Assembly: GCA_009760885.1 (NCBI GenBank)
Contig: CM019692.1
Coordinates: 57,092,964-57,156,963, forward strand
Length of the DNA: 64,000 nt
Source: Achatina immaculata
Taxonomy: Eukaryota; Mollusca; Gastropoda; Stylommatophora; Achatinidae
Direction: 5' to 3'
The position numbers and the translations under genes are program-made. The stretch's first letter is position 1. The number at the start of each line of letters is the position of its first letter. Shown one piece after another: positions 5,201-33,800 of the stretch. The notes beneath the pieces were generated by a model, which did not search any database, had not been told where the DNA came from, and saw only the letters and a program-made list of their open reading frames with translations.

Positions 5201-8200
5201 AATAAACCGCATTTCTGCTGCTTCCAGTGATTCACTGCAGACCTGCCTATTGTCCATGATTCACTTCCATATAATAAGATAGGTTCAATACAGCATTTTA
5301 GGACTCGTTTTCTAACATTCATTGATAAGGGTGTGTTGGATAATATGTTTCTCATTCTCTGAAATGCAGTCTTTGCTTGCCCTGTTCTGTTCCTAATTTT
5401 TGTTCTGCATTTCCCATCTGAAGTTATTATTGCTACAAGGTATTTAAATTTCTCCACTTTCTTTAGAATAGTTCTGATTAATTTTATATTGCATTTTGGT
5501 GGATTCTGTTTATTAGATGTAACCATTGTCTCTGTCTTTTTTGATGTTCAGAGTAAGGCCTTTCTGTTCACTTTTTTTGGTGACTTTATCCAAGAGATTT
5601 TGCAGGTCTTGTTGGCTCTCAGCTATTGATATAAAGATATTGTATATTAAATTTTTTTTTTTAAAAAAAGGTCACTTTTGTGCTATTGTCTGGCAGATCT
5701 TGGTGCAATGGTGCTGCATGCAGCTAGCCACCCAGCTCTGGTGAAGACCTTGTCAGAGCTTCTTCCTTACTCTTTTATGCAGTTTCTCCATAAGTTGGAG
5801 TTGAAGGAAAAAGAAAACAAAGAGAAGGGAGAAGAGTCAGTGCTTCAAAAAGCAGTTGAAATGGCAAACCATAGGCCTTGGGAGTTTGTTTTCAGAGATG
5901 TGAGTTTTGTATTTGTTACAAGTTTTTGAAAAACGTTATTGATATTTGACCCATGCTATAAGAGATGTGAGTTGTTAGAAGTTTTTTTGAAAAGCATTAC
6001 TGATATTTGACCTGTGTCATAAAAGATGTGAGCTGTGTATTGTTACACTTTATGGAAAATGTTACTCGTGCTGTAAGAGATGAGTTTTGCTGTGTCCGTT
6101 GTTAACAAAAATTAACTACATTAATGTGCACTGACACCAAGAACAAATTTCAGTCAGTTTTCGTATTTTCAGATCAGCAGAACAAATGAAGGTCTGGCTG
6201 TCAAAATTATAGATCCAGATAATTTTATTTTCCTTTGATCTAGCGAAATTAAAACTGGTTTTTAAATTTGCTTCGTTCTTGCAAGGGTGCCACCACAGTG
6301 GTGTAGCGGTTAGTGCACTTGCCTGCTGATCAGATTCAGTTTTGCACTGTGGCAGAATTTCTGCATTGGGTTCAACTCATTCATTCATTTGCATGTCCCT
6401 TGTGGAACTTTGCCTCCCTAACAGCACTCCTGTAGACCTCTTGGTTGTGAGCACGATGGCCTGCTGCTGATGCATCCATTTGCAGATCATTAACGATGTC
6501 CTGTAGCCATCTTCGGCTTGGTCTTCCTCTCTTTCTTTTCCCCATTATGTACCCTTCCAAACAGCAACATTGGGTTCAACTAAGCCTAAAAAAAAATGGA
6601 TACCTGGGACTTCTTTAAGAAAACAAAGGACAGGTGCTGGCATCCCTACCTCAAATGTTGTAGTGGCCTAGAAATGTGAAGGCACTAACACTTTCACACC
6701 ACTGCAGCAGACATATGCCATGAGACATAGAGATTTCCCCAAGATAAACAGAGAAAAGTACTCTCCTAGTAAATGCAGAGATAAATAACAAAGCTACTGA
6801 GTGTAATTATAGTTCTCTTAAGTAGACTAGCTAGCTCAGCACTTGCTGAAGGTGTGAATAGCTAGATTGTAGCATTGCTCACTTTTATAGAGAGGTGAGA
6901 TCATATTTGCAGAAGAGAAAAACAGAATTTTAGAGGGAACATTGCTTAAAATACACAGAAAGTAGTTGAGAAATTTGAAACCAGTTTATGAGTGTTGTGT
7001 CTTTATATGTTTATTTCTTGTGGTGATAGTTCATTACATATTTCTAGCCATGTTTAATATGGGCTTTTTCTGATAGTTTATTTCTAAATGTTTGATATGG
7101 GCTTTTTTTTATAGTGTCCTTCTAAATGTTTAATATGGGCTTTTTCTAATAGCTTAGTTCTAAATGTTTATTTTGGGATTTTATAAAAGTTTATTTGTAA
7201 ATGCTTATTTGTATTTGTTTAGATGTTTTGCTATGGGTTTTGGTGACAGCTTATTTCTTAGTGTTTTATTAAGGGCTTTCTCTTTGTAATATGAATTCTT
7301 GAATAATCAGGACAACCCTCCCATTTTACCTATAATGTGACTGAAAGACCATTGTATACAGATTTTTGTTTTGTTAGGAAAAATAAAATGTTTTTTTCAG
7401 TGCTCAGTAAGGTGATGCATAAACTTGGTTATATCCCCTGTTCACTATTAGTATAGGCAAGGCATAGGAAGATTTTTTTATTTTATTTTAATATGAAACA
7501 TTTGAGATGACTGCAGGGCTGAGTAAGTTCTCTTTTGTGTGGAGTTCACTGATTAGTTGTCTTTGTTTTTTTTTTTTAGATTTTACTTATCAGTGTCAAA
7601 ATACAATCAATTCGTGAAAAGCAGGAAGCAATGAAATTCAGAAGTTCTATTTATAGCAACAGAATGAACAGTTTTAAAACATCAAGCTCATAAAAGCCAT
7701 TCAAAACAAATGAAGTGACTTTTCTTAATTAAAAATATCTTTTTTTTTTTTTTAAATGTAATCATTTAAAAAAAATTTATGCTGCACATCTAAATCACGA
7801 GAAAAATATGAACTGAATACAGCATAAAAAATTTGTGAGAAAATGAATTGATTTTATTTCTGAAATATGTGAATATTTGTACAGATTATCTATACTCTGA
7901 AATATGTGAATATTTGTACAGATTATCTATGCAGAACTCAAGCTTCAAGGCACAGAGGCCACTTTGTCAGCATATGAAAATGCTGGTTATCTGTCTAGGA
8001 CACCACAACGAGAAAAGGATGCCATCTTTATCTACGAAGCATTAAAACTTGATGCCAGTAAAGATGGAAACGTTTATATGAGGTGTAAATGGCTAAAAAA
8101 TTACATCAAGAAACTGGACTATCAAATAGTTGGTGTAAGTAGCAAGAACTGAAGACCCCTTTTCTTACATGAGAGACAGACACAGACACACACACACACA

Positions 8201-11200
8201 CTCTCTCTCTCTCTCTCTCTCTGTCTCTGGCATGTGGCAGACATTTACATTTGTAAATAAGTCACCAACTGTACAGTGTATTCTAACCAGCTTATGCACT
8301 TTTGCAAGACTGCAACTAAAACAGAAATCTTGAATGATAAAGAAGACTGCTTGTTATAATTACTTTAAATTGGTTTAGTATGTTTCTTATCCAGTTTATC
8401 TACACTGTATTTGTCTATTTTCTTTCATTTGGACTCCAGAATAGTTATTTAGTTTATACTTTCTCTTTATTCTGGGTGATATGTGAAAATGAAAAAAAAA
8501 AAAAAACCGAACCAAAAAAAAAAAGTTAGAAGGAAATTTTTTTGTTCTGTATGATTTTAATAGCATTTATTTAATGAACCATTTTCAAATAAAATTATGA
8601 TGTGATGTGGGGAAAGCTTAAATTTGGCATATGTTATAACTTTGTACTTCAGAATATGTTAACAGAATTAAATTGATGGCATGCATAATCTTGCATTTCG
8701 GAGGGAGTTAATAAAAAAAAAAGAAGAAAAAAAATTGTCTTTTTTTTTTTTAATTACTTTTTTTTTTACATACTTTCACAAACAGGAAAAAAGATGGCAG
8801 GCGGCATTTCAATACCTGGAGAGCAGCAACATAATTAAGAGGGAATTATTCGACGGAGATGTCATCGTTTTCTTACGATATAACTGGCAGGCAGAAATGG
8901 ACACTGTGGAGGGGTTTGAACAAATTTTACAAAGTAGTGAGAGTGATCCGCTAGACTGGGCCATCGATTGTAGAAGGTTTGTTCGTCAGTCAGTCTTTAC
9001 CTGCATGCCTGAGTTCATTGAGGGTGTAAGTCGTAGCATTCATTAAAATAACAAGCTGCATGTGCCAGATCTGAACAGGAACGCAAGTTAAACGTCTATG
9101 ACATGAGGTGTCTAAGAAAAAAAACAAAGTAATAAAACTAGAAAAGAACTGCAGTGAAGTTAAATATCAAAGGCACAGAACAAGTTTAGGATCATTAATA
9201 AAATAGCATAAACTGATGCAAAGACTAGGGTTTTACAGGAGATACAAATATGAGAATAACAAAAATGAAAATAGACGAGTCAGAGATTGGCTGGGGCCTT
9301 ACAAAAGTACAGCAAGATAGCTTCATTTTTAACTCTTGGACTACCAGACCAAAATTCCCAAAATTAAGACCACAAGTAACTTTATAATGACACAAGTACT
9401 ATGTTTTAAAAACGAAATGACATGATGACATAGTAGTTAAAAATATGAATCTCCAGAAACCATATTGTTTATGTGTTAATATTTTAAAGTCATGTATGAC
9501 TGACTGTAGGATAAGTTAAAAAGATGAAAGGCTTGTTCTGTGTATTTCTCATAACGAATCAAATAATTGTTCACACGTTTGTTACCAGCCCTGACTTTGA
9601 AAGTCTGTGCAGTGATCCTGACCAGCTGAATGCCCTGCATCTGATCGCTTCTTCCCCTATCACAGTCATTTCAGGAAAAGGAGGATGTGGCAAAACAACA
9701 GTCATCACTAAGCTACTTCAATACTTGTGTGATCAGTAAGTATGATCAGAACATCATCAAACTACTTCAGCACTTGTGTGATCAGTAAGTATGATCAGAA
9801 CATCATTAAACTACTTCAGCACTTGTGTGATCAGTAAGTATGATCAGAACATCAACTCTTTCCCTGCCCGGCTCTATAGCGAATTCTTCCTGTTAGTCTA
9901 GTGCCTACCATCCACGTTATACCGATTTTGTTTCATTGCAGCGTAAAACTGTTGTAACTTTTTATTGTACACAATTTATCTGCACACTTCTGGTGATCTT
10001 TTATAGTTCAATCCAAAGCGTGGCTAACAACCGAGCGAAATTGATGTTTTTAACTGAGAAATTTCAATATTTATTGTGATTTTGGAGGCATAAGGACATA
10101 TCCTATGACCTGACCACTGTTCCTGAATGGACCCCAAGCACATTTAGACCTATTAAATGGACTGGAGAAGTAGTTAGAAGGTTATTTCAAACATTATTTT
10201 AGTGAGAATGCCACCACATGACGAGATTGGATGAAAATTTATGTAGATCTGGAAATCGCCGATGGTAAACATTGTACATCTAGACATTGCCGATGGTAAG
10301 CACTACACAATTATCAGCTAAAATCATCACACTACTTCTTTTTTCCTAAAAAACTCTTCATTTATGAAGTCTTCTTACATTTACAACTATTTTCATGCAT
10401 AACATGTATACTTTTAAAGTGGAAATACTTTGTACATTCACTTTTACAACTATACCCCCTATATATATCAAGACCCGCGCTTTTTGTGTGGCACGGATGA
10501 GAACATCCGCGGTTTTTTTTTTTCTGTGGCACGGGAAGAGTTAAACCACTTCAGCACTTGTGTGATCAGTAAGTATGATCAGAACATCATTAAACTACTT
10601 CAGCACTTGTGTGATCAGTAAGTATGATCACAACATCATTAAGCTACATCAATACTTGTATGATCAATAAGTATGATCAATTAATCACTAAACTACTACA
10701 GCACTTGTTAAGACTGTTTAAAACAAAAGTAGGAACAGTTTTATTAATTAATGAACACACAGTTGTAACAATTTGGTTTCTAACTTAGTCATATAGAAAC
10801 ACACAAGATATATAAACATTAAGGTATAAACCAAAATATTACAAATGTGTGCTTATTACTTAATAAATCTGTGCCTACTTTTGTTTTAAATAGTCTTCTT
10901 CTTCTTCTTCATTCGCTTCTACCACCAAGACCGCCCTGTGATCCTACTGAATTTATGCCTGTGGTCCTCATTAAGTCCCGTGGTCTCTGTGTGGTCCCCA
11001 AAAGAACCACACGAGATCCCCGAGAGGACCACAAGAGGCTCAGAGTATCGCAGGGCTTGAGCCTGTATTCTTGGTGGGTCTCAGAAGCGGGATTGCATGA
11101 CATTGTGGTTTTTGTTGCACCAGTTCAGTCTAGAGTTGGACTTTCTCACCGGAAGACCTCAACGTGTTTTGGATATCATTATATCCCCGCTGGGTGAGAG

Positions 11201-14200
11201 GTGGTAGCCCACCCAGGCCAGAGTTGGACTTTCTCACCGGAAAACCTCAACGTTGTTTTGAGATACCTGTGTATCACTGCCGGGTGAGAGGTGGTTGCCC
11301 ATCCAGTCCAGTGTTGGACTTTCTCACTGGAAAACCTCAGCGTGATTAGGATACGCAAACACCCTCACCGGGTGAGAGGTGGTTGCCTATCTAGACCACC
11401 CTGGTCCAGTGTCTCCGACTTCAGCATTTTTTTGGTCATGGCCGCTACCCTTCCTAGTTGTGACCAGGATGGAGCTTTTGTCCAGGAAGACGAATCCTCA
11501 CCACTAGTGACTTCCACCCCTGGGTTGAGCCGGTTTAGACATATTAACCCAGTATGGGTGTGTTTGGGATGTGACTGACCCCGAGAGCAGAGGTACCGTG
11601 ACATGCATAGCCATCAAGTTTCACCCCTGGTGTATGCTGGTTTAGGCATAATTCACTAGTATGGGTGTATATTGGGCGTGACCGACCTCTAGAGCGGAGG
11701 TGGCATGACATGTCTAGCCATCAAGTTCCACCCCTGGTGTATGCTGGTTTAGGCATTTTTCACCAGTGTAGGTGTATTTCGGACATGACTAGCCTCTAGA
11801 GCAGAGGCGCCGTCGTATGTGTAGCTCTCGCAGTGATACTACTGGACGTACCGATTAAATTTCACGTTATCCTTTCCTTCACCTTTTCATTTCGGCGCCA
11901 CACAGCAACCCTTACTTCTTTTCCGCAGTTTCTTCCTTGACCGGGAAGAGCTTCTCTCCACGCGTGGCATCCGAAGAGTCTCAGCAGCAGTGTCTTAACC
12001 TCTGGGACAAGCCGGTTTAGGCATTTCACCTGATATGAGTGCACTTAGGACGTGGCCAACCTCCAGACCAGAGGTGCCGTGATTTGACTGTTTGCTTTGC
12101 TTTATCCTTTCTACCACCTTTTCCACAGTGGTGCCGCGCGGCAACCCCATTTGCACCTTTTTCATTGGCCGGGAGGAGCACCGCTTCACGCACGGCAGCT
12201 GAAGAATCTCGCCAGCAGTGGTTAAATAGTCTTAGTATTTGTTATCACAGCTTTAATGTAGCAACTTTTGTGTGTATTTGTATATCTAGTTATGTATATA
12301 TACTCAAAAACTATTCATGAACTACTATAGCACTTGTGTGATCAGTTAGTGTGGTCAGTTGTTATGTTTTGAACCTGTTAATATTGTTTTGTTTGACCTT
12401 GGACATCACAGTAACCCAGATGATCTGCCCTTTATGGTCTTTCTCATGAAACTGGATGTATAATGTCTGGTATAATGTGGAATAGTATATTTAAAAAATT
12501 TCTCAAATGCACAAAGGGTGAAATACACTGGTACATGTGCGTTTTGTAAGTCTTCTTCTCTCTTATTCAGCATTCGAGAAAGGTTGGACATGCTAAATCT
12601 GCAGCCCTGTCACTCTGACAAAGTCCGCCTTCTTCTCCAGGTTTTTCTTTCGGTTCCTCTCCCCGTAGGTTTGTCAGGTTTGCAGGATGTGTTTGGTATC
12701 TATTTTTGTAAGTTACACTCTCATATGTTTTTGTCACCTGTAATAATTTTATCAATTGTTCTGACTCTCTCATCTAAATTCTTTCTATAATTTCATAATA
12801 CATGATTTTCTTTTAACCTACCAAAGGTTTATTTGTGTGTATTTTGACTTTCAGTGTAGTTTGTAAATAAGTAGTTAGATAGAGGCATATGGTGCAGTTC
12901 TATGAAAACGGGTATAAAGAGAAAGGAACAAAAGTTAGCAATAAAAAGTAGAAACAGTGAAATGGTTATGAAAGACAGCAGTAACAACAGAATATTTTTG
13001 GCAACTGCACTATACACATATGTCTAACTCTGTTCTAATAGTACCAGTTTTACAACAGTTAATCATTACAGTTTGTAAGGAAGAACATTTTAACTTCAAA
13101 TTCTTTTTTGTCATTTTTATAAATTGTGTGATGAGATCTTTGAAAAGGAATCATTTTTGTGTTCTGAAAGTTTTAAAATGCTTCTATGTGTTTTCCCTTC
13201 TTCCTTCAGTTCAGACACTGTGGCATTGATAGGCTTGATGTTCACATGAACACATTTTTATATCCTTCATGCTGTGGCAGAAGTCTGTGCAGTGTTTCCT
13301 GGTTTTTCTCACAGACATTCTTTTATGTCGAATTCCATTTTTTCCCAGTGACACACAGTGTACCAGATACTCATTTTTACAGTTGGATCAACTGGAGGAC
13401 CAATTTTTGCAGTTGGGTCAACTGGAGGACCAATTTTTATAGTTGGGTCAACAGGAGGATCAATTTTTACAGTTAAGTCAACTGAAGGGCCAATTTTTAC
13501 AGTTGGGTCAACAGGAGGATCAATTTTTACAGTTGGGTTAACTGGAGGGCCAATTTTTACAGTTGGGTCAACTGGAGGATGATGATAGCAGGCTCTTGTT
13601 ACTGATTAAGTCACACTTATGCTCCTCATGTGATTACATAAAAGGAGATGGTCAGTTACAAAATAAGGATTGATCAATCTGATGGATAAAAATCAAGTTA
13701 GAAGTATTTTAGTATTTTAATTAGACCATTGTAGTTCATCCATGTTTCATGATTCAAAATATTTTGGATAAACTTAAGCAGGGATTTTTTAAAAAAATCT
13801 AAATATACTGCAGTTAAAGCTTACAAAACTTAAATGTTTTACATAATTGCATGTTTTCTGTGCATAAAAGTAAATGATAACATAAGAGAAAAGATGTAAC
13901 CATCAGTGGCGAAAGCTGTGAATAGTATCACCAAGATAAAAGTTTGCTGTTAATCAACACAATGAGAGAATGTATGTGATTTTACAGCACATATTATAAA
14001 AATATTTAACAGAGTATATTATATTTTTTATGAAGCATGTATATATAAAGTAAATTTTGCTTATATTTTCAACAGAATGGAGAGAAAGATTCAAGCAGAC
14101 AGACAAGATGAGCTAGAGATGCTTAACGCAACTGAAGATACCCAGAACTTGACAAATTTGGACAATAACTTTAGAGATAGCTGCAAAAATCTTTCCCAAT

Positions 14201-17200
14201 GCCAGAGCATTAATGATGTTTCCCATAGACAAAGCTCATCTGGATCACACAGTGAATGCTCTTCATGCCAGCATCCTACAAATATTACTGTAACAGCCAG
14301 CGTCCCAGGCGATGCATCAGAACAACCCAAACCTGAGGATTCTAAGGAGTTAAAGCTGAGGAAGGAAGTGATCATGGACCTCATCAGATTTTTTAACCAG
14401 AAAAAAGATGTTGATGATCCACTTTTGCAGGAATATAAGAAGACAATTTTATTAACCGCTCCTACAGGTAAAAACTAGTTTCCTGAACTGAGGACCTAAT
14501 ATTTTTGGTGTGGGATAGGCTCGCGTGGTAGTTCACCAAGTTTTCCCATTTTTTATGAACTTTTCAACCTCATTGAGAGATTTTATGGCTACTAATTTGG
14601 CCTCTCTTAACAGCGTAATGCCTGTTTCAATGCGGGATTTAATGCCTGTTACAAAAAAAAATTTCATCAGTTAACTCGTTCACAAGACATGGTGGTAGTA
14701 GTGACAGATATGCTGCTCACTGACATAGTTTTGTATTATCTTCTACATCTCACCAAGCATCATCTGCCTGCTTGTCTCATATCTGCAGAGTTCATCATCT
14801 GGCATCCTGATTATTATACTTCATCTCCTGGCCATGTCTCTTGTTTTTTAAACCATTTCTTACTAGAGTATCCTGCGACTTGTATTCAAATGCAGTATTG
14901 TCACTTGACTCCCGACTGGGAATGAATTGTTGATATCTAGAGCATGTGCTACTTTCCTGTAGGACCTGGATTTCTGGGACCCCACTTTGATCTGAGATCC
15001 CTGCCAGTTCTTCACAGAATGTGTAGAGGACCATGTTTCCTCTGGTTATTGTCATTGGTGTTCGGGAAGATCCTTGCATAAGATTCTTTAAAACCAGCAG
15101 AGTAGAGCTTGCACATGTTTCCACCTTCTTTTGTGTTGACTTTCATCTGCTCTGTCAGACAAAGCTAAACCTCGGAGCCCTACAGCTGGATTCTTACGTC
15201 TATGTCAGTGGGAATTTCATGTTTTGATGAGTAAGCACTTCATACTTCTTAAATCTACAGACCACAAAATGCTACCTGGAAAAGCAGTCATGGCCTTATC
15301 CATTTTGCTTTATAATAGACATGACCTCAATACATGTGATTTTTTGTTGTTGTTTGTTTTGCTAATTATATTTGATTTTCTTTATAATGTTGTATCTTGT
15401 ACTTCACTTGACTATACTTTTCTTTCAGGATTCTTTTGAGAATATTTTGTTTTTTAATCTGATAAAGTACAACATTATGAACAGGGAAGGTTGTGATGTA
15501 AATATCTGAGCGAGCAAATACCTAAAGCAGCTTCCTTGTGGAAACAGCCTATCGCATACTTGTATAGTTGATGATCTTGACTATATGCAATCTCTCATCC
15601 ATTTCAGTGTTGAATTGTTGCAAATTTATTTTTCAATGTTCGTATGCTATTATTTGTTGTTTTCCTGTACAAATATTGTTCCATATCTTAAGTTAATTAT
15701 TATTTATGTTTTCAATAGCATTCTCAGTATCCTGTTCTCATCTTTTAACAGGGAAAGCTGCTAGATTATTAGGCCATAAAGCAAAGCTTCATTCTGCTAC
15801 ACTGCACAGCGTGATTATGAGCTGGAGGATGCACGCCAAGGTGATCTATGAGTCTGAAAAGAAGGAAATAAAACCATGGACCTATTCAACAGTTGAGGTA
15901 CATCTTTGTCTGTTTACCTTACGCACATGAAAGAGCGCAGTGGCTCTTTCTTTCCTCATGACCTGAACTTGGGTCATTTACTAAAATGAAAACTTTTAAA
16001 TACTTGCATTAATAATTTGTTATTAAATCACTGCTGAGGAACAGATTTATGCTTGACTCAGTGTTTAATCATATTAGTGGTAATTTAATAACAGAGAAGT
16101 TGATCATTCTTATTTTGCCTCAAATGAGCCAAACAAAAACGTTCATGAACAAAAACAATAAACTGAGTTAAGAAATCTAGTTCTGTGACAAAACAGAGCA
16201 TCTCATTTGGATCATAATCCTGTTTTTGCTTATAGATATCATCATCCTGTGACATCTCCCCAATGAGGATTGGCTGCAGTAGATCTTTAGTGGCACTGTC
16301 TCTTGTTTTCATGGTGCATCTGTCCAACTGCTTACAGTCCATCTTGTGATGTTGATCTCCCCTGGGAATAGCTGTTTTTAAGAACACTCTTATCTTAACA
16401 TAATCTTTGTGACAAAGGGAACATAGATCTGTTTGCTTAAAAACTCTGACCTAATTCTGTAGTCCAGAAGCCTATAGCAATCAACACTAATTGTAATAGT
16501 TATTTTTGTAAAATGTAATGTCAGGTTGGTGGACAGATGGGGGACATGGAGATCACTTGCAGGGATGAGGAAAATCTGATGTGAAACCAATGAATCCAGG
16601 ATGTGACAAGCCTATAGGTCTTTACAACAATGGCTGTCAGAGTGATGTAAACAAAACAGAGCTAGCAGACTATAGGTGGTGGGGTATGGATATTGTTGAG
16701 GCACTCATCGATTCCTCATCCCAAAGTCTGAGTGTCTCTGTGGAACTATCTCAGAGCCGTCTGGCCAGCCAGCATTGCATGCTGGATCTGATGTGGAGAA
16801 GGTGCTTAAGTACAGCCACCAGAGGCTGGAAAACAGTTTTGGCTAGGCAAGCCTACGCCACTGTCTTCATGGCAGTCTGAGCAAGACCACAGTTTGCCCT
16901 AGGAAGGAAAGGTGCTAAGTCGGAGGTACCCGGCCAAAAGGCACATCACAAAAATCAGGGTACCACGCATCATCGCCAGAGTGTGCATACGAAGAAGAAG
17001 TGATGTTGATCAACCATCACTGTTGTTCTCATGCTCTTTTTCATCATGCAGTTTTCATTTGTGCATGAACATACAGCCTGATGTTTAGAGATCAATGAAA
17101 CCTCAAAAACTTAAAGACTTGGCAGTCGTGGAGAGCTGTTGTCCAGCTAAACATGAGACATTCATCACAAATGACATGTGGCTCATGACTACCTATCATT

Positions 17201-20200
17201 ACCAGTAACTGAGTCATTTCTATGGCTGATGATGAGGTATTCAGAAAATGGGCACTTTAGCGCAGCCTTTTCATCTGAATCATTAACGTCTGTAGATATC
17301 TACCACAGATAGTGTTTGTTTTGAAGAAAGTCTCCTTAAGTTATGTTTATAAATTATTTAATTCTGTTTTCAATAGCATTCTCAGTATCCTGTTCTCATC
17401 TTTTCACAGGGAAAGCTGCTAGATTATTAGGCCATAAAGCAAAGCTTCATTCTGCTACACTGCACAGCGTGATTATGAGCTGGAGGATGCACGCCAAGGT
17501 GATCTATGAGTCTGAAAAGAAGGAAATAAAACCATGGACCTATTCAACAGTTGAGGTACATCTTTGTCTGTTTACCTTACGCACATGAAAGAGCGCAGTG
17601 GCTCTTTCTTTCCTCATGACCTGAACTTGGGTCATTTACTAAAATGAAAACTTTTAAATACTTGCATTAATAATTTGTTATTAAATCACTGCTGAGGAAC
17701 AGATTTATGCTTGACTCAGTGTTTAATCATATTAGTGGTAATTTAATAACAGAGAAGTTGATCATTCTTATTTTGCCTCAAATGAGCCAAACAAAAACGT
17801 TCATGAACAAAAACAATAAACTGAGTTAAGAAATCTAGTTCTGTGACAAAACAGAGCATCTCATTTGGATCATAATCCTGTTTTTGCTTATAGATATCAT
17901 CATCCTGTGACATCTCCCCAATGAGGATTGGCTGCAGTAGATCTTTAGTGGCACTGTCTCTTGTTTTCATGGTGCATCTGTCCAACTGCTTACAGTCCAT
18001 CTTGTGATGTTGATCTCCCCTGGGAATAGCTGTTTTTAAGAACACTCTTATCTTAACATAATCTTTGTGACAAAGGGAACATAGATCTGTTTGCTTAAAA
18101 ACTCTGACCTAATTCTGTAGTCCAGAAGCCTATAGCAATCAACACTAATTGTAATAGTTATTTTTGTAAAATGTAATGTCAGGTTGGTGGACAGATGGGG
18201 GACATGGAGATCACTTGCAGGGATGAGGAAAATCTGATGTGAAACCAATGAATCCAGGATGTGACAAGCCTATAGGTCTTTACAACAATGGCTGTCAGAG
18301 TGATGTAAACAAAACAGAGCTAGCAGACTATAGGTGGTGGGGTATGGATATTGTTGAGGCACTCATCGATTCCTCATCCCAAAGTCTGAGTGTCTCTGTG
18401 GAACTATCTCAGAGCCGTCTGGCCAGCCAGCATTGCATGCTGGATCTGATGTGGAGAAGGTGCTTAAGTACAGCCACCAGAGGCTGGAAAACAGTTTTGG
18501 CTAGGCAAGCCTACGCCACTGTCTTCATGGCAGTCTGAGCAAGACCACAGTTTGCCCTAGGAAGGAAAGGTGCTAAGTCGGAGGTACCCGGCCAAAAGGC
18601 ACATCACAAAAATCAGGGTACCACGCATCATCGCCAGAGTGTGCATACGAAGAAGAAGTGATGTTGATCAACCATCACTGTTGTTCTCATGCTCTTTTTC
18701 ATCATGCAGTTTTCATTTGTGCATGAACATACAGCCTGATGTTTAGAGATCAATGAAACCTCAAAAACTTAAAGACTTGGCAGTCGTGGAGAGCTGTTGT
18801 CCAGCTAAACATGAGACATTCATCACAAATGACATGTGGCTCATGACTACCTATCATTACCAGTAACTGAGTCATTTCTATGGCTGATGATGAGGTATTC
18901 AGAAAATGGGCACTTTAGCTCAGCCTTTTCATCTGAATCATTGACTTCTGTAGATATCTACCACAGATAGTGTTTGTTTTGAAGAAAGTCTCCTTAAGTT
19001 ATGTTTATAAATTATTTAGTTCTCTTTTCGATACATCTGTATTGTGTACTAAAGGGAGGGAAAGAAAGGGCAGGAGAGAGCATCTCGAGGTGTGTGCATG
19101 TTTTTAAACTCTCCCTGCTTATATCAGTTTGAGAAACCATTTCTGTTTTCAGATTTTGGTTGTAGACGAGTGCAGCCTTGTGTCAGTTCGTCTGTTCGCT
19201 TGTGTGATGAACATTCTCCTCAGACATGCTAATTTACGTAAAATTGTTCTGCTTGGGGATGTGAGACAGCTACCTTCAATAGAAGCTGGAAATTTCTTAA
19301 CAGTAAGTTTTCTTCTTATGCTTTTATCTCTCTGAAACTGTGAGCATGATGTTCTTTGTATCCAGTGTAGTAAAGCTCTTGAATCACTGCATCATGTCAG
19401 GTTGGGACTGGGTGATGGAGCTGTTGAAGCATTGCATCATGTCAGGTTGGGACTGGGTGATGGAGCTGTTGAAGCACTGCATCATATCAGGTTAGGACTG
19501 GGCGATGGAGCTGTTGAAGCACTGCATCATGTCAGGTTAGGACTGGGCGATGGAGCTGTTGAAGCACTGCATCATGTCAGGTTAGGACTGGGCGATGGAG
19601 CTGTTGAAGCACTGCATCATGTCAGGTTAGGACTGGGTGATGGAGCAGTTGAAGCACTGCATCATGTCAGGTTAGGACTGGGCGATGGAGCTGTTGAAGC
19701 ACTGCATCATGTCAAGTTAGGACTGGGTGATGGAGCTGTTGAAGCACTGCATCATGTCAGGTTAGGACTGGGTGATGGAGCTGTTGAAGCACTGCATCAT
19801 GTCAGGTTGGGACTGAGTGATGGAGCTGTTGAAGTACTGCATCATGTCAGGCTGGGACTGGGTGATGGAGTCCCTAAGGGGAGCTAAAACATAAAGGGTG
19901 TGCAGAACTTCTTGGGGCATCTGAGTGGCCAGTTGGTTAGTGCACTGGTCTCTCATGGCGAAGGTCGGGGATTCAAATCTGGCCAGAGGCACCCCAGCTG
20001 CTCAATTGTAGAAGTGGGTACCTGACTTATTCTGGAGTTGGGGAAAGAAAGGCGGCCATATCACCCTCTAGTGTGGTGACAGGTCAAGGAAAATATGGGC
20101 ACTAAGACCATATCCCTATATGCCCCCAAGGCATGACAGGGTTACCTTTAGTACTTCTTTAGCAAGTTCCAATGCCGTGGGGACTGTACCAGTCGCTGAC

Positions 20201-21783
20201 TATAATCCAGGCTAGGCCTGTTACTGGAGCTAACAACAGAGAGGCGGGACAAGGTCTTAGCTGGCCGTGTTCACCAGCCCTGGCACTAACAGGATCACTA
20301 GCTGCCAGATCATACAGTGTCTTCAATCCCTTCTACAAGATCACTAGCTGCCAGATCAGACAGCGTCTTCAATCCCTTCTACAAGATCACTAGCTGCCAG
20401 ATCAGACAGTGTCTTCAACCCCTTCTACAAGATCACTAGCTGCCAGATCAGACAGTGTCTTCAATCTCTTCTACAAGATCACTAGCTGCCAGATCAGTGT
20501 CTTCAACCCCTTCTACAAGATCACTAGCTGCCAGATCAGACAGCGTCTTCAACCTCTTCTACAAGATCACTAGCTGCCAGATCAGTGTCTTCAACCTCTT
20601 CTAAAGATCACTAGCTGCCAGATCAAACAGTGTCTTCAACCCCTTCTACAAGATCACTAGCTGCCAGATCAGACAGCATCTTCAACCTCTTCTACAAGAT
20701 CACTAGCTACCAGATCAGACAGCGTCTTCAACCCCTTCTACAAGATCACTAGCTGCCAGATCAGACAGTGTCTTCAACCTCTTCTACAAGATCACTAGCT
20801 GCCAGATCATACAGTGTCTTCAACCTCTTCTACAAGATCACTAGCTGCCAGATCATACAGTGTCTTCAACCCCTTCTACAAGATCACTAGCTGCCAGATC
20901 ATACAGTGTCTTCAACCCCTTCTACAAGATCACTAGCTACCAGATCAGACAGTGTCTTCAACCCCTTCTACAAGATCACTAGCTGCCAGATCAGTGTCTT
21001 CAACCTCTTCTACAAGATCACTAGCTGCCAGATCAGACAGTGTCTTCAACCCCTTCTACAAGATCACTAGCTGCCAGATCATACAGTGTCTTCAACCCCT
21101 TCTACAAGATCACTAGCTGCCAGATCAGACAGTGTCTTCAAACCCTTCTGCAAGATCACTAGCTGCCAGATCAGTGTCTTCAACCCCTTCTACAGGATCA
21201 CTAGCTGCCAGATCAGACATTCCGTAACAAACAGATGTATGTTTCATAGATCTTGGACTTAACAACGGAGATATGTCCCAAGAAAGCATTGACTTGACTG
21301 TAAATTGAAAGTCATAAATGTGTAATATATTACTGTATACAATAATGCACACACATTTGTTCTTTTCATTTTGATGTTAAAGGGGCTGTTTATTTATGCA
21401 AAGGTGTGAAAAAAATGATCCACAGAATGCCAAGTAGTGACATGCAAACCACATGCAGAAAATGTTATCAGACAAATCAGACCTCACTACCCAGGAGCAA
21501 TTGACATCTGTCATGCAGTGACTTCTTTTTGTATCTGACAATAAAATTAATATTGAATATTAAATTAATATTGAATATTATAACAGTAATGTACAAATAT
21601 TTTTTTTTAACAACAGATGCCATATTTAAAGTAGAAATTCAGTGATCTTTGCAAAGCAACAATTTTATTTATTTCTATGTACAATAATAATTTTGTTTTT
21701 TAAATTGAAATGAAAACATAGTTATGAGAAAAGTAGATAAAAACCTCTGTTTCACATTATGTGGTTGCATAATCAAGTTATAG

Positions 21784-21814
<31 letters not shown>

Positions 21815-24800
21815 AAACAAAATATTTCCATTCCATATACAAGTATACTAAATTGAACTCCATATATAAGTATACTAAATTGAGCTCCATATATAAGTAT
21901 ACTAAACTGAACTCAGTGTAGAGTATACTAAATTAAACTCCATATACAAGTATACTAAATTGAACTCCATATATAAGTATATTAAACTGAACTCCATATA
22001 CAATTATACTAAACTGAATTCCATATACAAGTAAAGACGGACCTGTACTTATGCTTCACAGACTACCGTAAAGCATTCGATAAAATGAGACACACAGAAA
22101 TGGAAGACGTCAATATAGATGGGAAAGATCTGAAATTCATCAAAAACATATACTGGCATGAATCAGCAGCAATAAATGTTGAGAACTAAATAGGAGCATT
22201 TCAAGACAAGGATGTGTTCTATATCCTGACCTCTTCTCTTTGTACAGCGAAAACATAATGAGAAATATAGAGAGTTTGCCAGGAATATCAATTGGTGGGT
22301 ACAACCTTAACAACTTAAGATATGCAGACGACACAGTTTTGATTATTAAAAGTGAAGGAGAGCTACAGGCCCTTCTGGGCATCGTGGTTCGTAAAAGTAA
22401 AGGTCTCAGCCTGAATAAAAAGAGGACTGAAGTGATGGTCATCTCAAAGAAAAGAATGCCACCAGGATGTAGCATTACCATCGATGGCACAGAGCTGAAA
22501 CAAGTTGATAGATTCAAGTACTTAGGAACAATTATAACAGCTGATCAGAAATGTCACAATGAAATAAAAAGCAGACATGCTCAGGCCAAGTCAGCATTCG
22601 AGAAAATGAGAAACATCTTGTGCAACAGATCCATATCAGTGGAAACAAGATTCCAAGTACTTAAATGTTGCATCGAGCCAATTTTGTTTTATGGACGTGA
22701 AGCATGGTCCATGAGTAAGAGAGTACAGCGAGAAATGGAGGCCATGGAAATGTGGTTCATAAGAAGGATGTTGAAGGTACCATGGACAGGTAAGAAAACC
22801 AGCGAAGAAGTCTTAAGAGAGGCTGGAGTTAAAATGCAAATTACAGCAAAGATCAGAGGCAGACAAACAAGATTTGTAGGACATTTTCTGAGAAGAGGAA
22901 AATTGGAACACATTGTGGCAACTGGAAAAATTGAGGGAAGAAGAGACAACAGAGGAAGACAGAGAGAGAAGTTACTGAATGGACTGTCAGTGTGGCTAGG
23001 AAGAAAGTCATCAGCAGATCTCATAATCAAGTCTAAAGACAGGGAATTGTGGAGAGAAATAATTGCCTACGCCACATGGCACTGTACTTGATTGATTGAT
23101 ACAAGTATACTAAATTGAACTCCATATACAAGTATACTAAATTGAACTCCATATACAAGTATACTAAATGGAACTCCATATACGAGTATACTAAATTGAA
23201 CTCCATATACGAGTATACTAAATGGAACTCCATATACAAGTATATTAAATTGAACTCCATATACAAGTATATTAAATTGAACTCCATATACAAGTATACT
23301 AAACTGAACTCCATATACAAGTATACTAAACTGAACTCCATACACGAGTATACTAAATTGAACTCCATATACAAGTATACTAAATTGAACTCCATGTACA
23401 GGTATATTGCATGATCTTCCTTTCCTAAATCCTGCCTGCTCTTTCCGAAGTTTTCCCTCAAGTGCTGGTACAATTCTGTTGATGATTATTCTGCAGAATA
23501 CTTTACTGGTGAGTGGCAGGAGGGTAATGCCTCTCCAGTTCCCACAATCTCTGAGGTCACCCTTCTTCAGTTGTTTTGGTGTTTCTGTTTCATCTGCTTT
23601 CAACATCTCAGCAGTCACTTCATCTTCACCTGGTGCCCTGTCTAATTTTAGTTTCTTTATTGCCTCCTTTACTTCACTTATTGTTATTGGTCCTGTATTG
23701 ATGTTTAGTTCCGTTTTTGATTCAGGTATGTCTATTGTTTGTACTGCTTGCGTTCTGTTTAGTAGGGTGTTAAAGTGTTCCCTCCATCTTTCAATTTTTT
23801 TTCTTTCTCCACTGTCGAGTTGTCCTAAATGTTTACGAAGAATTAGAAAAATATTTTGGCCAAACACCATAAGAAATAACATCTTGTTGGCAGAGATGCA
23901 GTTGAAGCCACTGACAGCAATTATTGAGGAAAGACGCTGGTGATGGTTGGGACATGTGCTCCAAATGACTATTAACTCACTACCAAAAACAGCACTAAGA
24001 TGGACACCACAGGGGAACAGAAGTAAGGGTAGACCAAAAGAGACATGGAGAAGAACAACAGAGAGGATGTTGAGCAAAAGAAGGCTTACCTGGGCAAGAG
24101 CAGAAAAAAAGGCAAAGGACAGGCATTTGTGGAAAACCCTTGCGGAAGCCCCGTGTGCCCTGGGCACTTAAGGTTCACAGAGAGAGAGAGAGAGAGAGAG
24201 AGATACAGGTATATTAAATTGAACTCCATATACAAGTATATTAAATTGAACTCCATATACAGGTATATTAAATTGAACTCCATATACAGGTATATTAAAT
24301 TGAACTCCATATACAGCTATATTAAATTGAACTCCATATACAGCTATATTAAATTGAACTCCATATACAAGTATATTAAATTGAACTCCATATACAGGTA
24401 TATTAAATTGAACTCCATATACAAGTATATTAAATTGAACTCCATATACAAGTATATTAAATTGAACTCCGTATACAAGTATACTAAATTGAACTCCATA
24501 TACAAGTATACTAAATTGAACTCCATGTACAGGTATATTGCATGATCTTCCTTTCCTAAATCCTGCCTGCTCTTTCCGAAGTTTTCCCTCAAGTGCTGGT
24601 ACAATTCTGTTGATGATTATTCTGCAGAATACTTTACTGGTGAGTGGCAGGAGGGTAATGCCTCTCCAGTTCCCACAATCTCTGAGGTCACCCTTCTTCA
24701 GTTGTTTTGGTGTTTCTGTTTCATCTGCTTTCAACATCTCAGCAGTCACTTCATCTTCACCTAGTGCCCTGTCTAATTTTAGTTTCTTTATTGCCTCCTT

Positions 24801-27800
24801 TACTTCACTTATTGTTATTGGTCCTGTAATTATGTTTAGTTCCGTTTTTGATTCAGGTATGTCTATTGTTTGTACTGCTTGTGTTCTGTTTAGTAGGGTG
24901 TTAAAGTGTTCCCTCCATCTTTCAATTTTTTCTCTTTCTCCACTATCGAGTTGTCCTAAATGTTTACAAAGAATTAGAAAAATATTTTGGCCAAACACCA
25001 TAAGAAATAACATCTTGTTGGCAGAGATGCAGATGAAGCCACTGACAGCAATTATTGAGGAAAGACGCTGGTGATGGTTGGGACATGTGCTCCAAATGAC
25101 TATTAACTCACTACCAAAAACAGCACTAAGATGGACACCACAGGGGAACAGAAGTAAGGGTAGACCAAAAGAGACATGGAGAAGAACAACAGAGAGGATG
25201 TTGAGCAATAGAGGGCTCACCTGGGCAAGAGCAGAAAAAAAGGCACAGGACAGGCATTTGTGGAAAACCCTTGCGGAAGCCCCATGTGCCCTGGGCACTT
25301 AAGGTTCAGAGAGAGAGAGATACAGGTATATTAAATTGAACTCCATATACAAGTATATTAAATTGAACTCCATATACAAGTATATTAAATTGAACTCCAT
25401 ATACAAGTATATTAAATTGAACTCCATATACAAGTATATTAAATTGAACTCCATATACAAGTATATTAAATTGAACTCCATATACAAGTATATTAAATTG
25501 AACTCCATATACAGTTATATTAAATTGAACTCCATTTACAAGTATATTAAATTGAACTCCATATACAAGTATATTAAGTTGAATTCCATATACAGGTATA
25601 TTAAATTGAAAATAGGAAACGATCCAACCTGTCCCTGCAGTGCATCAGATGTGACAGTAGGACATGTGCTACAAAGCTTCAGGCTGTACAAAGAGTTGAG
25701 GAAGTAAGCATTTGGCTCTTGTTAGTCCCAAAAAGAGAACAATTGTTTGGAGACTGGAGATGTCCTGTCCTTCCTTGGACACAGCAATATACCTTATATC
25801 TGAGGTAAAATCTGACTTCTTAAAAAGAATAGAGAAGATGATCAGTTGCAGTAAATATGAATATGATTGTCTTATTTTTTTAATGTGTCAAGTCCTTCAT
25901 TGTCTGTTTTTTTTTTTTTCTCAGGATGTTTTCAAGGCTTTTAAAACAGCAGGCAGTGAAGAGTTCAGTCTGAGCTTAGAGCTGACCAAGAACCATCGCT
26001 CAGAATCGGAGCTGATAGTGGAAAATGCTGGAAACATTGCAAATAAAATCATGCCTACATTCAGCGAAGAGAAAAGATTCCATTTGAAAGAGATTTCGGA
26101 GTTTGCAGACAGTAATGGTATGTCTGATATCTTTTCACGAAGTGTAGAGTGAAAATTAAGACCCCTGAACTGTTTGTTTACAGAAGAATAGGGCATATTC
26201 TGGGGAAAACAGAAGTAGTACTACAAGTGAAATTTAAAAAAAAAGAATTAAAAACATAAGAACCAGCTAGTTCAAATAATTGGTTATGTCATGAGGTATA
26301 ATACAATAATGAAAGCCATACTAGAGAGAACAGTAGAATGAAAAAGAGCAAGAGGACAGCAATGATGATATGTTGGTGGACAACATAAAAAAATAGACTG
26401 TAAGCTTGACCAGGTGCACTGTGGAAACAGAAGAGTAATCTTGAGGACCATTGCAGGCAACCTTCCATGGGAAGAGGGCATAAGATAAGGTTTAAAAGTA
26501 GATTTCATTTTATTTTTAACTTTTTAAAAATGTAGTTTCATTTTAATACATCTCTCACAATCTTTCTGTTATTCACAATTTGACTGCACAAGTTTGTGTA
26601 CTAGCCAGTCAGAATAAAGTGCTAAAAAAAAAAAAACGTTCACGCTAGGATTTGCAGATAGCAGAGGAAGGGGCTGCCTACACAAGAGACGGAGGGAGGA
26701 AATTACACAGAAACATTAAATATCCTATTATATGAAGCAGATTGCTGAGCCCTGTCAAGATGCCTGTTTGCCCCCTCAACTCTGAAAGGTATATGAGGAT
26801 GGAGGACAAGTTTCAGTGCTCTGAATTAGCAGAATAAAGATTTGAGTTTCTCGTCTTTTATTTCCTGTGTCCTCCATTAACTCATCTAACACAGTTACCC
26901 CTCTTGTATTCTCTTTGTTTAACTAGGCAGTCTGTTTCTCTGCAGGAGTTCTTCTTGCAGTATATTTGGTTATTAAAGCACCAACCGGGTGTCTGCTTCT
27001 CATTTCAGAGTGTGATGAAGCCGTTAGAGATCTTCTTAAACATGTCAGAGATGTTCAGTCTCATGAGGATTCGCAGTTTATCTCCTTTAGAAAGTTGGTA
27101 TTGTTTATTAGTGCAATAAATGATTATCGTGTGTAGGAATAGAGGCTTGAGTGAATGGTGAAGCGGTCAGTGCAGTAGTCTCTCATGGATCTGTGGTTCA
27201 AGTCAGGCCATATGCATCCCAGTCACCCCCAGGCTGTGGAAATGGATACCCGTTTTTAGAGGCTGGGTGGGACCCCAGGCATTTTTGGTGTATACCAGAA
27301 GAAAAAAATCCCCGTTGCTTGGACTTGAACCAGGTACCACTGGATTAGAAAACCAAGCATCTAACCGCTTAACAAACCAGGCTGCCTTGCTCTAAATGTC
27401 AGTAGTAAGGTAGCGATTTGTGCTTGAAGTTAAGAAAATGTCAAGCTGTGTTTCAGGGTGTTATATACCCTGCTATGAGATTAACTTTCTACTTCAATAT
27501 CAACTTTTTACCTTAATGATTTCACATTTCTATCTTAATGAGATCAGCTTTTTGCCTTTTTCTGCCTTAATAAGATCAACTTTTGCCTTATGAAATTAAC
27601 TTTCTACCTTAGTGAGATTTTGGATTTCTACATTAGTGAGATTAACTTTCTGCCTTGGTGAGGTTTCAGCTTTCTACCTTAGTGAGATTAACTTTCTACC
27701 ATGGTGAGATTTCAGCTTTCTACCTTGGTGAGATTAACTTTCTACCATGGTGAGATTTCAGCTTTCTACCTTAGTGAGATTAACTTTCTGCCTTGGTATC

Positions 27801-30800
27801 TTTGGTCAGCTTCTTTCTGTGTAAAAGCATTCTTCTTGAAAATACAGTCATCTTCTTCCTTTCCTTATTCCTTGTGTTAAAGTTAAAAAACGACATAAAT
27901 GAACTTTACAGTAGTAACAAGACTAGGAAGTGATATTTCATCAAGAAGTCTCACCATCATGTGTTCATCATTATGTTTCTTGTCTTTGATGTTGTCATAT
28001 AAAGACTCCTTGCTGAAATATTGTTTTCTTACAATAGTAAAACTTGTTATTCTCATTTTTTTTAAACTTTGAAATCACTCCCTTTAGCAATGACTATGTT
28101 TATCTGCACACTTGTTAAATGTATGCTTCATATATGCTAGGTTTTGTTTGTGTTATCAGTCTATTATTTTGTGTGACAAAAACAGAACTCTTGATAATGA
28201 TTCTTTCCTATTTTCACCATTAACTTTAGGTTCCACAGCTTATTTTCCTATCTGTATTCCCAATTATAAATATATACAATCCATTTATCTTTTTTCTGTA
28301 TTCCAATCAGCTCACACTGTAAGGCTGTGAATGAGGTTTGTTGCTTGCACTACAACAAACATCCAACTACTGCAGCTTCCACTGGTGGGAAAAAGGGGCG
28401 CACAGATTTCCGTATTGGGGACAAAATTTGTTTCGGCAAAAATAACCTGGTTCCAAATTTTCGCAACCTTATGCTAGACAGATACATTGAGGATAGCACT
28501 GCACTTCAAGAAGCTGTCAACGTGCACAGACATCAGAAACAACATCCACAGCAGGCTACAACACATACAGTTTGTTCTTACTCACATGGAAGTCAAAGCA
28601 GGGCCAAACTAGATACCGCACAAGCTCTGAAGCTGTTAGAAATTGATGATGCCACATTTGACTGCACAGTCAGCAAAATGAGAGAGAAGGAATGCAAGAC
28701 AGAGGAGGCAGTGATGGAGAGAGCAAAACAAGAACGGCTCAGACTTGCTAGAGAGCAGCAGGCAGCATGGAAAGCTTCACAGGTTTGTAAACAGGTGACA
28801 GTTATTATTAGCATAATTTAGTTAAGACAGAGAAAGGATGCTGCTCAGGTACAAAGTACAAAGGAAGTTCACTTAACTCAAGGAAAAGGTGAAGGAGATT
28901 CAATAAAAATTCGTGTCTGATTTTAACAAATTTTCTTGTAAAAAAAAAAAATTGCCATGTGGGAAGCTCATAAGAATAGAGTTGTCGAAGTAAAATCTGA
29001 CAGAAAATCCTAAAGTGAAAGCAGTTGGCGGGTTTACTTTTTTACCTATCTTTCACCATCACCTGCAGCTCTTCTAGATTTCCATTTAATACAAGCCTCA
29101 ACTTTCTTTCAGAGCTGAGTGTCAGAATCAAGAGGAGTTTATTGCAACAAGGGCTTGGCATATTCTATTTCTTAACTGCTACAGTAAAGCAGGAAACCCT
29201 TTCTTATGTTGGTAAAGTCAGCCATAAGAGTTGCCATGTAAAGTTTTGCTTGACAGTTTCTGTGCATAGTTGATATCTTTCTGCAGTTCTACAACTGTCT
29301 TCTAATGGAAAAAAAAAGTCAATTGTTAATTAGAATTTTATTAAAATAATGAAAAGGGCATATAATAAATTGTTTTTATAAAGTCTTGGCTTCCCAGACA
29401 GATTTACATAACATCATTACTTTCTTTTAACTCTTTCCATGCCAGGCGTCAATTTTTTGACGCTTCCTGTACCCCCATTGCTTACCAAGCGTCAATTTTT
29501 TTACGCTTGGTTTGTTTCAATAAAACAACTGGTGTAACATTTAGATTGTACACATTTCATCCGTGTTTCCGGTGACACTTTTCAAAATGATGAAAGAGTC
29601 CTTAGATACGAGCGATGCCGAGCGAGAAAAAGGAAGAGAAACATCGAAATTTTTCAATTTTTGGCGACATAGATAGGGGTATGGACATGGCCTGTGACCA
29701 CCCCGCTGCTCTTGAATGTATACCAAGTAGATCTAGACATATTTAGACAACTGGAGAAGTAGTTAGGAGGTTATTTCAGATATTAATTTAGCGAGAATGC
29801 AACACAGAATCACAATATGAGATCGACAAGTAGATCTAGACATCTCAGATGGTAAGTAGTGCATATCTAGACCTAGCCAATGGTGAGCTGGGCATAGTCA
29901 TTGTCTAAAAACATCACATTACTTCTTTTTTTCCTGAAAAACTCTGCATTTATGAAATTTTCATTCATTTAGTTATACTTTGAAACATAATGAGTATACG
30001 GAAGTACATGGAAATACTGTTTTCCATTCCATTTTATAACTATACCCACTTACAGGCCAAGACTCGCGCTTTTATTCTGGCACTCCACTACACATCCGTG
30101 TTTCTTCCTCTGGCACAGAAAGAGTTAAGTTCATCATCATCACCTTTCATTCCCATGGGAGCATAGGCCACAAATAAAGGCTCTCTAGTTGTCCCCATTC
30201 TTGGATTTGTTCTCTGCTTCCTTCCATGTGTATCCCTTGTCTCTGAGCACTGTCATGATTTCCCTTCTCCAAGAAGTAGTTCTAGGTCTTCCTCGATGTC
30301 TGTTTATGAGACTTCCATGTCATTGCCTGTTTTGTTGTGCTGGTGTTTCCTCAATGTTTGGCCAATCCACCTCTTATTTCCTAGACATGATTTGTTGGTT
30401 CATAGCCCCTTTTTTCAGACCTCCTCATTCTTGAACTTGTCCTGCCATTAAATGTTTTAAATCCACCTCAAGCAGTAGTTTGTGAATTGTTTGTATTCTC
30501 TATTGCCTTAGTCATCACTCATTCTTTTAAATTGGTATCATCATAATCTTTTGAATGTAGCCATTTTTGAAAAGACTATAAATTTATCACACGAGCACAT
30601 GAACCTGGATACCTTAAAGTGGACATTAATTTTATGCACAGGTTACTGGAGCACCTTCTCTTGGAAAAGAATCAGAAAAACTCTGTAATGGAGAGGTCTT
30701 TTTCATCATGGATGTAAGCTGTGGTTTTATTGTATGTATTTCAGTTGTCACTTTGGTCTCATGGATATAAACTGTAGCATTTGTCACTTCATGGATATAT

Positions 30801-33800
30801 GGTAGTTGTTGCTTCTACATTTCTGGCTAAAACACTTTTCACATTAAATGCTAAAATATATGGATTGTTACAGTTTTTACCAACTAGAAATGTTTACCAG
30901 TTATTTTTATGTTTGGGAAATTTTTCTGCTGCAGTATCTTAGGATAATGACATTTACAACAGTGGTTATATTCCCAGTGACCTGATTAAATCCACGTTTA
31001 TAGCACTACCAAAGAAACCAGGTGCAAAGGAATGTGACGACCACTGGACTGTCAGCCTCTCATGTCACATAACGAAGCTACTTCTGAGAATGATTATGAG
31101 AAGAACAAGGAAAAAGATAAAAATGGAAATAGCAGATGAACAGTTTGGATTTGTTGAAGGAAAGGGAACACACAATGCCATTTATGCTTTACAAACACTA
31201 ACAGAAAGAGCCTTAGAAGTACAGAAAGATCTCTACTTATGCTTCATTGATTACACCAAGGCATTTGACAAGGTGAAACATAATGAAGTTATTAAAATGC
31301 TTGAAGACATCAGTATAGATGCCAGAGACCTGAGGATTGTAAAACATCTATACTGGCAGCAAGAAGCAGCAGTTCGAGTTGAAAATAGGATTGGAAAATA
31401 TCAACCTATAAAACAAGAGGTGCGACAAGGATGTGTCTCCAGACTTTTTTTCTCTGTATAGCGAGAATATTCTAAGAACAATCATCACAGAACCAGGCAT
31501 AAAAATTGGAGGATAACAATATTAACAACCTTCGGTATGCTGATAACACAGTACTGATAGCTGAGAACCAACAAGACCTGCAAAATCTCTTGGATAAAGT
31601 CGCCAAAGAAAGTGAACAGAAAGGCCTTACTTTGAACATCAAAAAGACAGAGACTATGGTTATATCTAAGAAACAGAATCCACCAGCATGCAGTATTAAA
31701 TTAAACGGAACTATTCTAAAATAGGTGCAGAAATTCAAATACCTTGGAGCGGTAATAACTTCGGATGGGAAGTGCAGAACAGAAATTAGGAACAGAATAG
31801 GCCAAGCAAAGACTGCATTTCAGAGAATGAGAAACATATTGACCAACACATCCTTATCAATGAATGTTAGAAAACGAGTCCTAAAATGCTATATTGAACC
31901 TATCTTGTTATATGGAAGTGAATCATGGACAATAGGCAAGTCTGCACAAAAATCATTGGAAGCAGCAGAAATGTGGTTTATCAGAAGAATGTTGCGAATC
32001 CTCTGGACAGCAAAAATAACTAATGAAGAATGTATGAGAAGAGCTGGAGAGACAAAAAAACCTTGTCAAAAAGATAAGAGAGAGACAATGTACTTTCATA
32101 GGACATGCAATGAGAAAAGGGGGCATTGAAAATATTATAACAACAGGAAAAATAGAAGGAAGAAGATCAAGAGGAAGACCGAGAGAAATGATACTGGACA
32201 GTCTGACAGGATGGTGTGAGAGGAGATCACCAACTGAACTGGTGGCCTGCATGAAGGATCGTGTACTCCGGAGAAGCATAATAGCCAACGCCAGTTGGCA
32301 CGGCGCATGATTATGATGAGTATCTTAGGAAGCATTTTTCTTGAAAATCTTCATATATTTAGGCAGATCTTAGACTAGTTGGCCAAATTGTCATTTGTAG
32401 CATTGCTTATAATATAAGAGGTTTACATGAAGAAAAACTGTCCGAACCACATCATTTAAGAAAATTCTGGCTCCAGCTCACTTTGTATGAACCAGCTGAT
32501 TTGACAAATGGCTCACTAGGCAGAAACCTGCTTAAATTGTTTGCTGAATTCAGGGAGGCAAGCCAAAAGATAAGAGATAACACAGCAAAACTACGGATAA
32601 CAACATATCTCATGGTCAGTTTGAATTATTGAAAAATCTTTTTTTTGCAAGTCTTCTCCGCTTCAGGGACCCACCAGGAACATAGGCCCCAGCCCCTGAT
32701 GCGCTGAGCCTCCATTCTAAATGAAATCTGTCTCGAGGATCACACGAGTAAACTCAGTAGCAGCACGGGGCGATGTTGGTGATAGAAGTGTACGAAGTGA
32801 AGTGCAAGTCTTCAATCAGAAATTTTTGTTTAATGTGATTTCCTGTGAATTTTATATATATATATATATATATGAGGTGCTGGGCAAGAGCAGAAAAAAA
32901 GGCGAAGGACAGGCATTTGTGGAAAACCCTTGCGGAAGCCCCATGTGCCCTGGGCACTTAAGGTTCAGAGAGAGAGAGAGAGATATATGAGGTGCATGTT
33001 AACACGCAGTATGTGCTTTTCAATTTTTTTTAACTGTGCATTATTTTGGTTCTCTTCATTTGTTTGAATACCTTACCCACTTATCATTTTCTTCCTTAAG
33101 CATCATTTTCCTCATTAACATTTTCCATCTTTTTCTGTATTCTTGCCATACAACAAGTACAGTAAATGAAAAACAGTTTTTAAAATTTCATGATTAATGT
33201 TTACATTATTTTATAAAATATCCCTTTCATATGCACATAATGTATATATAAATATGATCAGGAAATCGAGCAGCCTATGCGATATCTGATTTTGTCAGAC
33301 CGAGATCCAGATTGTCCTCGTGTTGTCTGTGCTCCCTTCAAGTTACTGAGAAAGCAAGGCAGGATGAGACATTCCTGGGCCAGGACTATACACACATTCC
33401 AGGTAAAGATGGCCAACTTTTGCTCTATAAGAAAAGCTTTGAATGGTTAAAGATTTCATGTTGCGTGTGTAGTTTTTTTTTTTCCCTCTTATTTCTTTTG
33501 ATGTAAATTATACTTCTGGAAATTGGCAACCTTCGCTTGTGTAGCAACCACCACATGAAAGAAGAGAGGAAACTGGCAACCTCCGCTTGTGTAGCAACCA
33601 CCACATGAAAGAAGAGAGGAAACTAGCAACCTTTGCTTGTGTAGCAACCACCACATGAAAGAAGAGAGGAAACTGGCAACCTTCGCTTGTGTAGCAACCA
33701 CCACATGAAAGAAGAGAGGAAACTGGCAACCTTCGCTTGTGTAGCAACCACCACATGAAAGAAGAGAGAAAACTGGCAACCTTCGCTTGGGTAGCAAACA

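Follow-up and report, generated by a model that had tools for sequence, protein, structure and literature searches.

A 49-bp minisatellite across the 5' splice site of the Walker A exon in a probable HELB gene of Achatina immaculata

Minisatellites that span splice junctions have been described in cephalochordates as "mirages". In the amphioxus reports, these arrays are found in Adh3, the globin genes BflGb6 and BflGb9, troponin C and PGBD5, their units range from about 10 to 160 bp, and the authors state that regular splicing is undisturbed. Related events appear in two further papers: a potato RdRp gene acquired a new intron, spliced and supported by RNA reads, through a tandem duplication crossing a boundary (PMC4974935), and intron 3 of an abalone TSSK1-like gene carries a minisatellite with a 27-bp unit that varies between animals (PMC6905558). 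Here we analyzed a 64,000-nucleotide stretch of the gastropod Achatina immaculata (assembly GCA_009760885.1, contig CM019692.1, positions 57,092,964 to 57,156,963 of the forward strand), referred to below as the window, whose coordinates are used throughout. Within it a 49-bp tandem unit spans the 5' splice site of an exon in a gene that, from its homology and reading frame, is probably HELB (DNA helicase B). The array is probably a mirage, here in an animal group new to this kind of element.

The amphioxus mirages and the HELB array have in common a unit lying across an exon-intron boundary, splice signals within the units, and homogenised inner units with diverged units at the edges. The difference between a description from cephalochordates and one from a gastropod is one of place, not of a defining trait. 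Unlike the amphioxus cases, the present array lies in HELB, is divided by inserts and carries five identical donors; allele-length variation and complementary DNA (cDNA) are on record for some of the amphioxus genes, whereas the HELB array is known from one genomic sequence. With intron gain by duplication it shares a tandem duplication across an intron-exon boundary (PMC4974935, PMC3443670), and it differs from the potato case in that the new potato intron is spliced, while the HELB copies are modelled wholly inside an old intron. The abalone and HELB arrays are both intronic minisatellites in gastropod genes, and the abalone passages make no mention of a splice junction in the array. Among the papers listed in searches of the open-licence literature, none was seen to describe a junction-spanning minisatellite from a gastropod, which is weak evidence of absence.

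The exon concerned, exon D (9589..9735, + strand), is the Walker A exon, and its 3' end reads TGT GAT CA | GTAAGT in phase 2, the boundary 9735|9736 being placed by protein homology and frame. The native unit, N (9704..9752; this and all further units on the + strand), holds 32 exon and 17 intron bases around the modelled donor and agrees at 45 of 49 bases with i3, the reference unit of the comparison. At 49-bp steps it is followed by i2 (9753..9801; donor after 9784; 48/49) and i3 itself (9802..9850; donor after 9833). An insert of about 687 bases then divides the array, which resumes with i4 (10537..10585; donor after 10568; 45/49), i5 (10586..10634; donor after 10617; 48/49), the decayed unit i6 (10635..10683; donor lost as ATAAGT; 39/49) and i7 (10684..10708; 23/25), which is cut off before the donor site. 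The first bases of i4 belong to the insert, whose end accounts for three of its four mismatches to i3. Some 1.6 kb of other sequence, starting with a palindromic element, separates i7 from a last decayed unit, i8 (12313..12361; donor GTTAGT; 37/49; blastn 87% over 39 bp). The donor TCA|GTAAGT is identical in five units, with cuts after 9735, 9784, 9833, 10568 and 10617; GTAAGT is thereby kept in N and in four of the seven intronic units. Units i2, i3 and i5 lie one to two bases in 49 from one another and the outer units have diverged, a pattern seen across few units.

When the whole window was scanned on both strands with unit i2 in ungapped fashion, N, i2, i3, i4 and i5 gave 45-49 matches, i6 gave 37, a copy at 12318 gave 35 and i7 gave 26; no 49-mer outside the array exceeded 27/49 in that scan. 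Tandem Repeats Finder (TRF) and a repeat finder detect the same 49-bp array. An earlier note, made by a model from the letters of the sequence, had described a 49-bp minisatellite built from the end of an exon together with the adjoining 5' splice site, with five intact GTAAGT motifs, a transposon dividing the array and decay in the later copies. The unit alignment and the scan bear out each of these points, and the scan places the homology between the exon end and the intronic units, on which that note had staked its claim, beyond chance. Its range, 9704..10715, encloses the main array and misses the decayed copy at 12313-12361. Its division of the unit into 32 exon and 17 intron bases is one of several possible phases: CATCA stands at both edges of the 49-bp unit, so the exact exon/intron split cannot be fixed, and short matches may have been the joining points of the founder duplication. 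It was mistaken in placing TTCAG in every repeat, as this motif occurs in i2-i5 only (four of eight units), N having TTCAA, i6 ATCAA, i7 TACAG and i8 TATAG.

The direction of copying follows from the coding status of the exon end. Exon D has an open frame with its neighbouring exons and was matched by tblastn with the HELB protein of Physella acuta, at 63% over 51 residues in an alignment that ends at the boundary Gln (to 9736). The modelled next exon, E (14076..14467, + strand), joins D in frame, and the junction reads Q-MERKIQ where Physella has Q-EESKIQ. Because the exon end is thus genuine HELB coding sequence, the intronic units were copied from the exon and not the reverse, the direction that had been proposed earlier. 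The whole gene is modelled from homology and reading frame with exons from about 5.7 to 37.6 kb of the window on the + strand, and joining eight of them gives a single open frame from 8786 to 28782. Among ten chosen named homologues, Physella acuta HELB is the best aligned by tblastn for exons A-F. In a search with the whole HELB query, in which 7996 candidates were scored and proteins longer than about 878 amino acids were excluded, Glandiceps, Pinctada and Montipora stood slightly above Physella among the best 120 of 315 matches.

At least two inserts have landed in the array. The one between i3 and i4 is a dispersed repeat (9855..10541, unstranded, its left boundary placed to within a few bases) with the ends CTCTTTCCCTGCC and GGCACGGGAAGAG. 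Its part at 10091-10544 has relatives within the window at 39845-40290, 29680-30128 and 41154-41600 (70-74%), whose right ends are GGGAAGAGTTAA, AAAGAGTTAA and GGGAAGAGTTGA, with GAGTTAA in two of the three and GAGTTGA in one. From the bases of the neighbouring units, the insertion site was probably TTAA, of which none remains on the left side. By eye, the insert ends form inverted repeats at 11 of 13 bases, and a fair guess is that the insert is a TTAA-targeting DNA element; piggyBac is an element of this type. The other insert is palindromic (10710..10897, unstranded), with 78-nt arms that are 86% complementary and partial relatives near 50576-50810 (73-86%).

In our judgment the array is probably a minisatellite with its founder unit across the exon D donor, that is, a mirage, and a near-neutral passenger provided that the native donor is used. 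The first duplication would have run from a CATCA in the exon to its match some 15 bases inside the intron, thereby copying the exon end together with its donor. Slippage or unequal exchange may then have multiplied and homogenised the inner units while the outer ones decayed and inserts entered. Since premature stops appear in all the alternative products tested, the native donor is most likely still the one that the splicing machinery uses. Use of any of the four copied donors is predicted to bring an in-frame TAA at the codon right after the native Gln, as the earlier note had predicted for donors downstream of the native one, and inclusion of one, two, three or four copies as micro-exons likewise stops prematurely each time. 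The copies would then be near-neutral passengers that yield at most some unproductive transcripts. Several points weigh against this account. One 9-mer is common to all five donors and gives the native site no advantage over the copies. The literature on equal duplicated donors includes work by Reed and Maniatis, by Eperon and by Hodson; in test genes of this design the site closest to the 3' splice site is reportedly often chosen, and on that rule a copy would be expected to win here. At three positions N and i6 carry G, A and T where i2-i5 carry A, G and C; bases shared by N and i6 and absent from i2-i5 mean that the array did not grow by one simple left-to-right front, a pattern explicable if several units were exchanged together. 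Finally, three HELB junctions with tandem copies, the exon D donor and two described below, could be more than random placement would give. On the choice among equal duplicated donors, passages of PMC8724738 and PMC4039745 contain nothing that decides it.

That the copied donors instead serve as decoys, with U1 engaging several equal sites, some transcripts reading CAG TAA and being degraded, and copy number tuning HELB output, seems to us unlikely. The five identical 9-mers and the immediate stop from any of the four downstream donors count in its favour, but the older units show no sign of donor preservation, and the loss of GTAAGT in i6 and i8 argues against selection for copied donors. With a crude donor matrix built from the 19 remaining modelled donors, the shared 9-mer TCAGTAAGT scores 4.02, the third lowest of 20, and 17 other GT sites between 9589 and 14070 score at least 6, so the copies are not outstanding decoys; the amphioxus mirages, too, are reported without splicing disturbance. 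A donor-presenting hairpin, in which TGATCA-GTAAGTA-TGATCA would fold with GTAAGTA as its loop, was considered and rejected, as the native unit folds no better than its shuffles (z -0.32), 66 of 200 of which do as well.

A supply of micro-exons (TTCAG|CACTTGTGTGATCA|GTAAGT), or a stage in the gain or displacement of an intron, is a far less probable reading of the array. In four units TTCAG stands just before the copied exon end, and these pseudo-acceptors score 2.4-3.6 with the full acceptor matrix, within the range of -2.25 to 13.99 that the 22 modelled acceptors take when each is left out in turn; the one in i2 ranks 692 of 4118 AG sites on the + strand by the acceptor matrix. The premature stop after any one to four copies tells against inclusion, as does the spacing of 35 nt between neighbouring candidate micro-exons, since 35-nt introns are unusually short for an animal. 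The potato gene is a precedent for an intron gained by a junction-crossing tandem duplication. Equally improbable is an assembly artefact or a repeat wrongly collapsed or expanded. The same gene does contain a near-perfect duplicate (15695-17378, offset 1658) that could be an assembly product, but the units of the 49-bp array are mutually different, decay outwards and are divided by different inserts; their exact copy number could still be wrong.

The second junction with tandem copies is a HELB donor, AGAGAT|GTGAGT, at 5894..6090 on the + strand (donor after 5899). Its AGAGATGTGAG is repeated at 5961; the copies at 6022 and 6076 are altered, the array having decayed. The gapped alignment score here is 64, compared with at most 45 in 1000 Markov-randomised targets; TRF with loose settings reports 61 bp x 2.2 from 5902, and the strict scan misses the array with a score of 0. 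The third is a HELB acceptor, TTTGTACAG|ATTATC, with 37-bp units at 7829..7930 on the + strand. The modelled acceptor lies after 7921, its exon start being placed by Physella HELB, and a copied acceptor lies after 7884, use of which would be out of frame and run into a stop; strict TRF gives 1.9 copies at 7859-7930 and loose TRF 2.9 copies at 7829-7930. The donor at 5899 and the acceptor at 7921 bound one and the same HELB intron.

Whether these junctions exceed the background was judged against 42 modelled junctions (20 donors, 22 acceptors) set by homology and frame; those of HELB exons I, M and N, the J donor and the ARID1 junctions were set by reading frame and GT/AG only, and the ARID1 exon near 55181-54849 and the second copy of HELB exon F were omitted. 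A gapped scan set these three junctions apart, scoring the D donor at 82, the A donor (5899) at 62 and the B acceptor (7921) at 54, with the other 39 junctions at 33 or less; most acceptor rows stand at 28, a built-in 14-base self-overlap, and owing to the query and target cut positions the scan does not flag the D donor or the B acceptor as "spans". The window is rich in minisatellites, as strict TRF finds 22 arrays of period 20 or more covering 9% of its bases. In the strict scan, two of the 42 junctions were above every threshold, compared with 7.5-11% of 12,600 window positions (11% at a score of at least 24). Counting founder units, strict TRF (22 arrays) gives 0.80 junctions expected and two seen (Poisson tail about 0.19), and loose TRF (38 arrays) gives 1.11 expected and three seen (about 0.10), one of the three, an array at 27000-27065, being weak. 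The array at 5902 starts 2 bp inside the intron and is outside these three; if it is also counted, the tail for at least four is about 0.03. Both TRF lists take the 49-bp array twice, as the insert divides it, and the loose setting yields 45 arrays in 5 x 64 kb of first-order Markov sequence, so about nine of the 38 loose arrays may be chance. A junction hot spot was accordingly set aside: the scans and founder-unit counts show no clear excess and are compatible with a mild one. We hold it quite unlikely, a shade more so than the decoys, that in this snail lineage splice junctions are recurrent birthplaces of minisatellites, whose competing-site arrays would alter output and feed intron shift or gain; on that view the three HELB junctions, all inside 4 kb and two of them bounding the same intron, would be snapshots of the process.

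If cDNA confirms the minisatellite, junction-spanning arrays would extend from amphioxus to molluscs. The locus is, besides, a ready-made construct: five identical 5' splice sites stand in series and one choice gives protein, so that RNA could reveal a choice made by position and not by sequence. Should junction arrays exceed expectation genome-wide, they would bear on the movement of intron ends and on intron gain; this window has no clear excess.

Beyond HELB, the window contains an ARID1/osa gene at about 46 to 61 kb on the - strand, whose closest relatives among the 15 matches listed are from heterobranch snails (Physella, Candidula, Lymnaea, Biomphalaria, Bulinus, Elysia and kin). Together with the HELB alignments, these relatives point to a heterobranch and probably panpulmonate gastropod as host. 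No known RNA family was found in the window at gathering threshold, and a comparison with solved structures gave four weak RecD/AAA matches, which were not used. The tandem segmental duplication at 15695-17378 has its copy 1658 bases on, with 1669 of 1683 bases equal; of the 14 mismatches, 10 fall at the two edges. It holds one whole HELB exon twice, the 146-nt copies being identical, and both copies in one transcript would shift the frame; the duplication may be of very recent origin, be polymorphic or have arisen in the assembly. Further arrays lie near HELB exons. About 70 bases past the donor of the Walker B exon, 19374-19870 is an 11-copy array of a 45-bp unit (a multiple of three) in which one frame is open throughout and, by eye, CAGGTTAGG occurs in 6 of 11 units. 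An 11-copy, 50-bp array at 33518-34068 begins about 115 bases past the HELB exon donor at 33402, the donor not being inside it. At 21832-25610, open frames resembling reverse transcriptase by eye continue into arrays of 27-bp units (at 21832, 23099, 24203 and 25320), as though a retroelement had picked up a minisatellite or brought it along.
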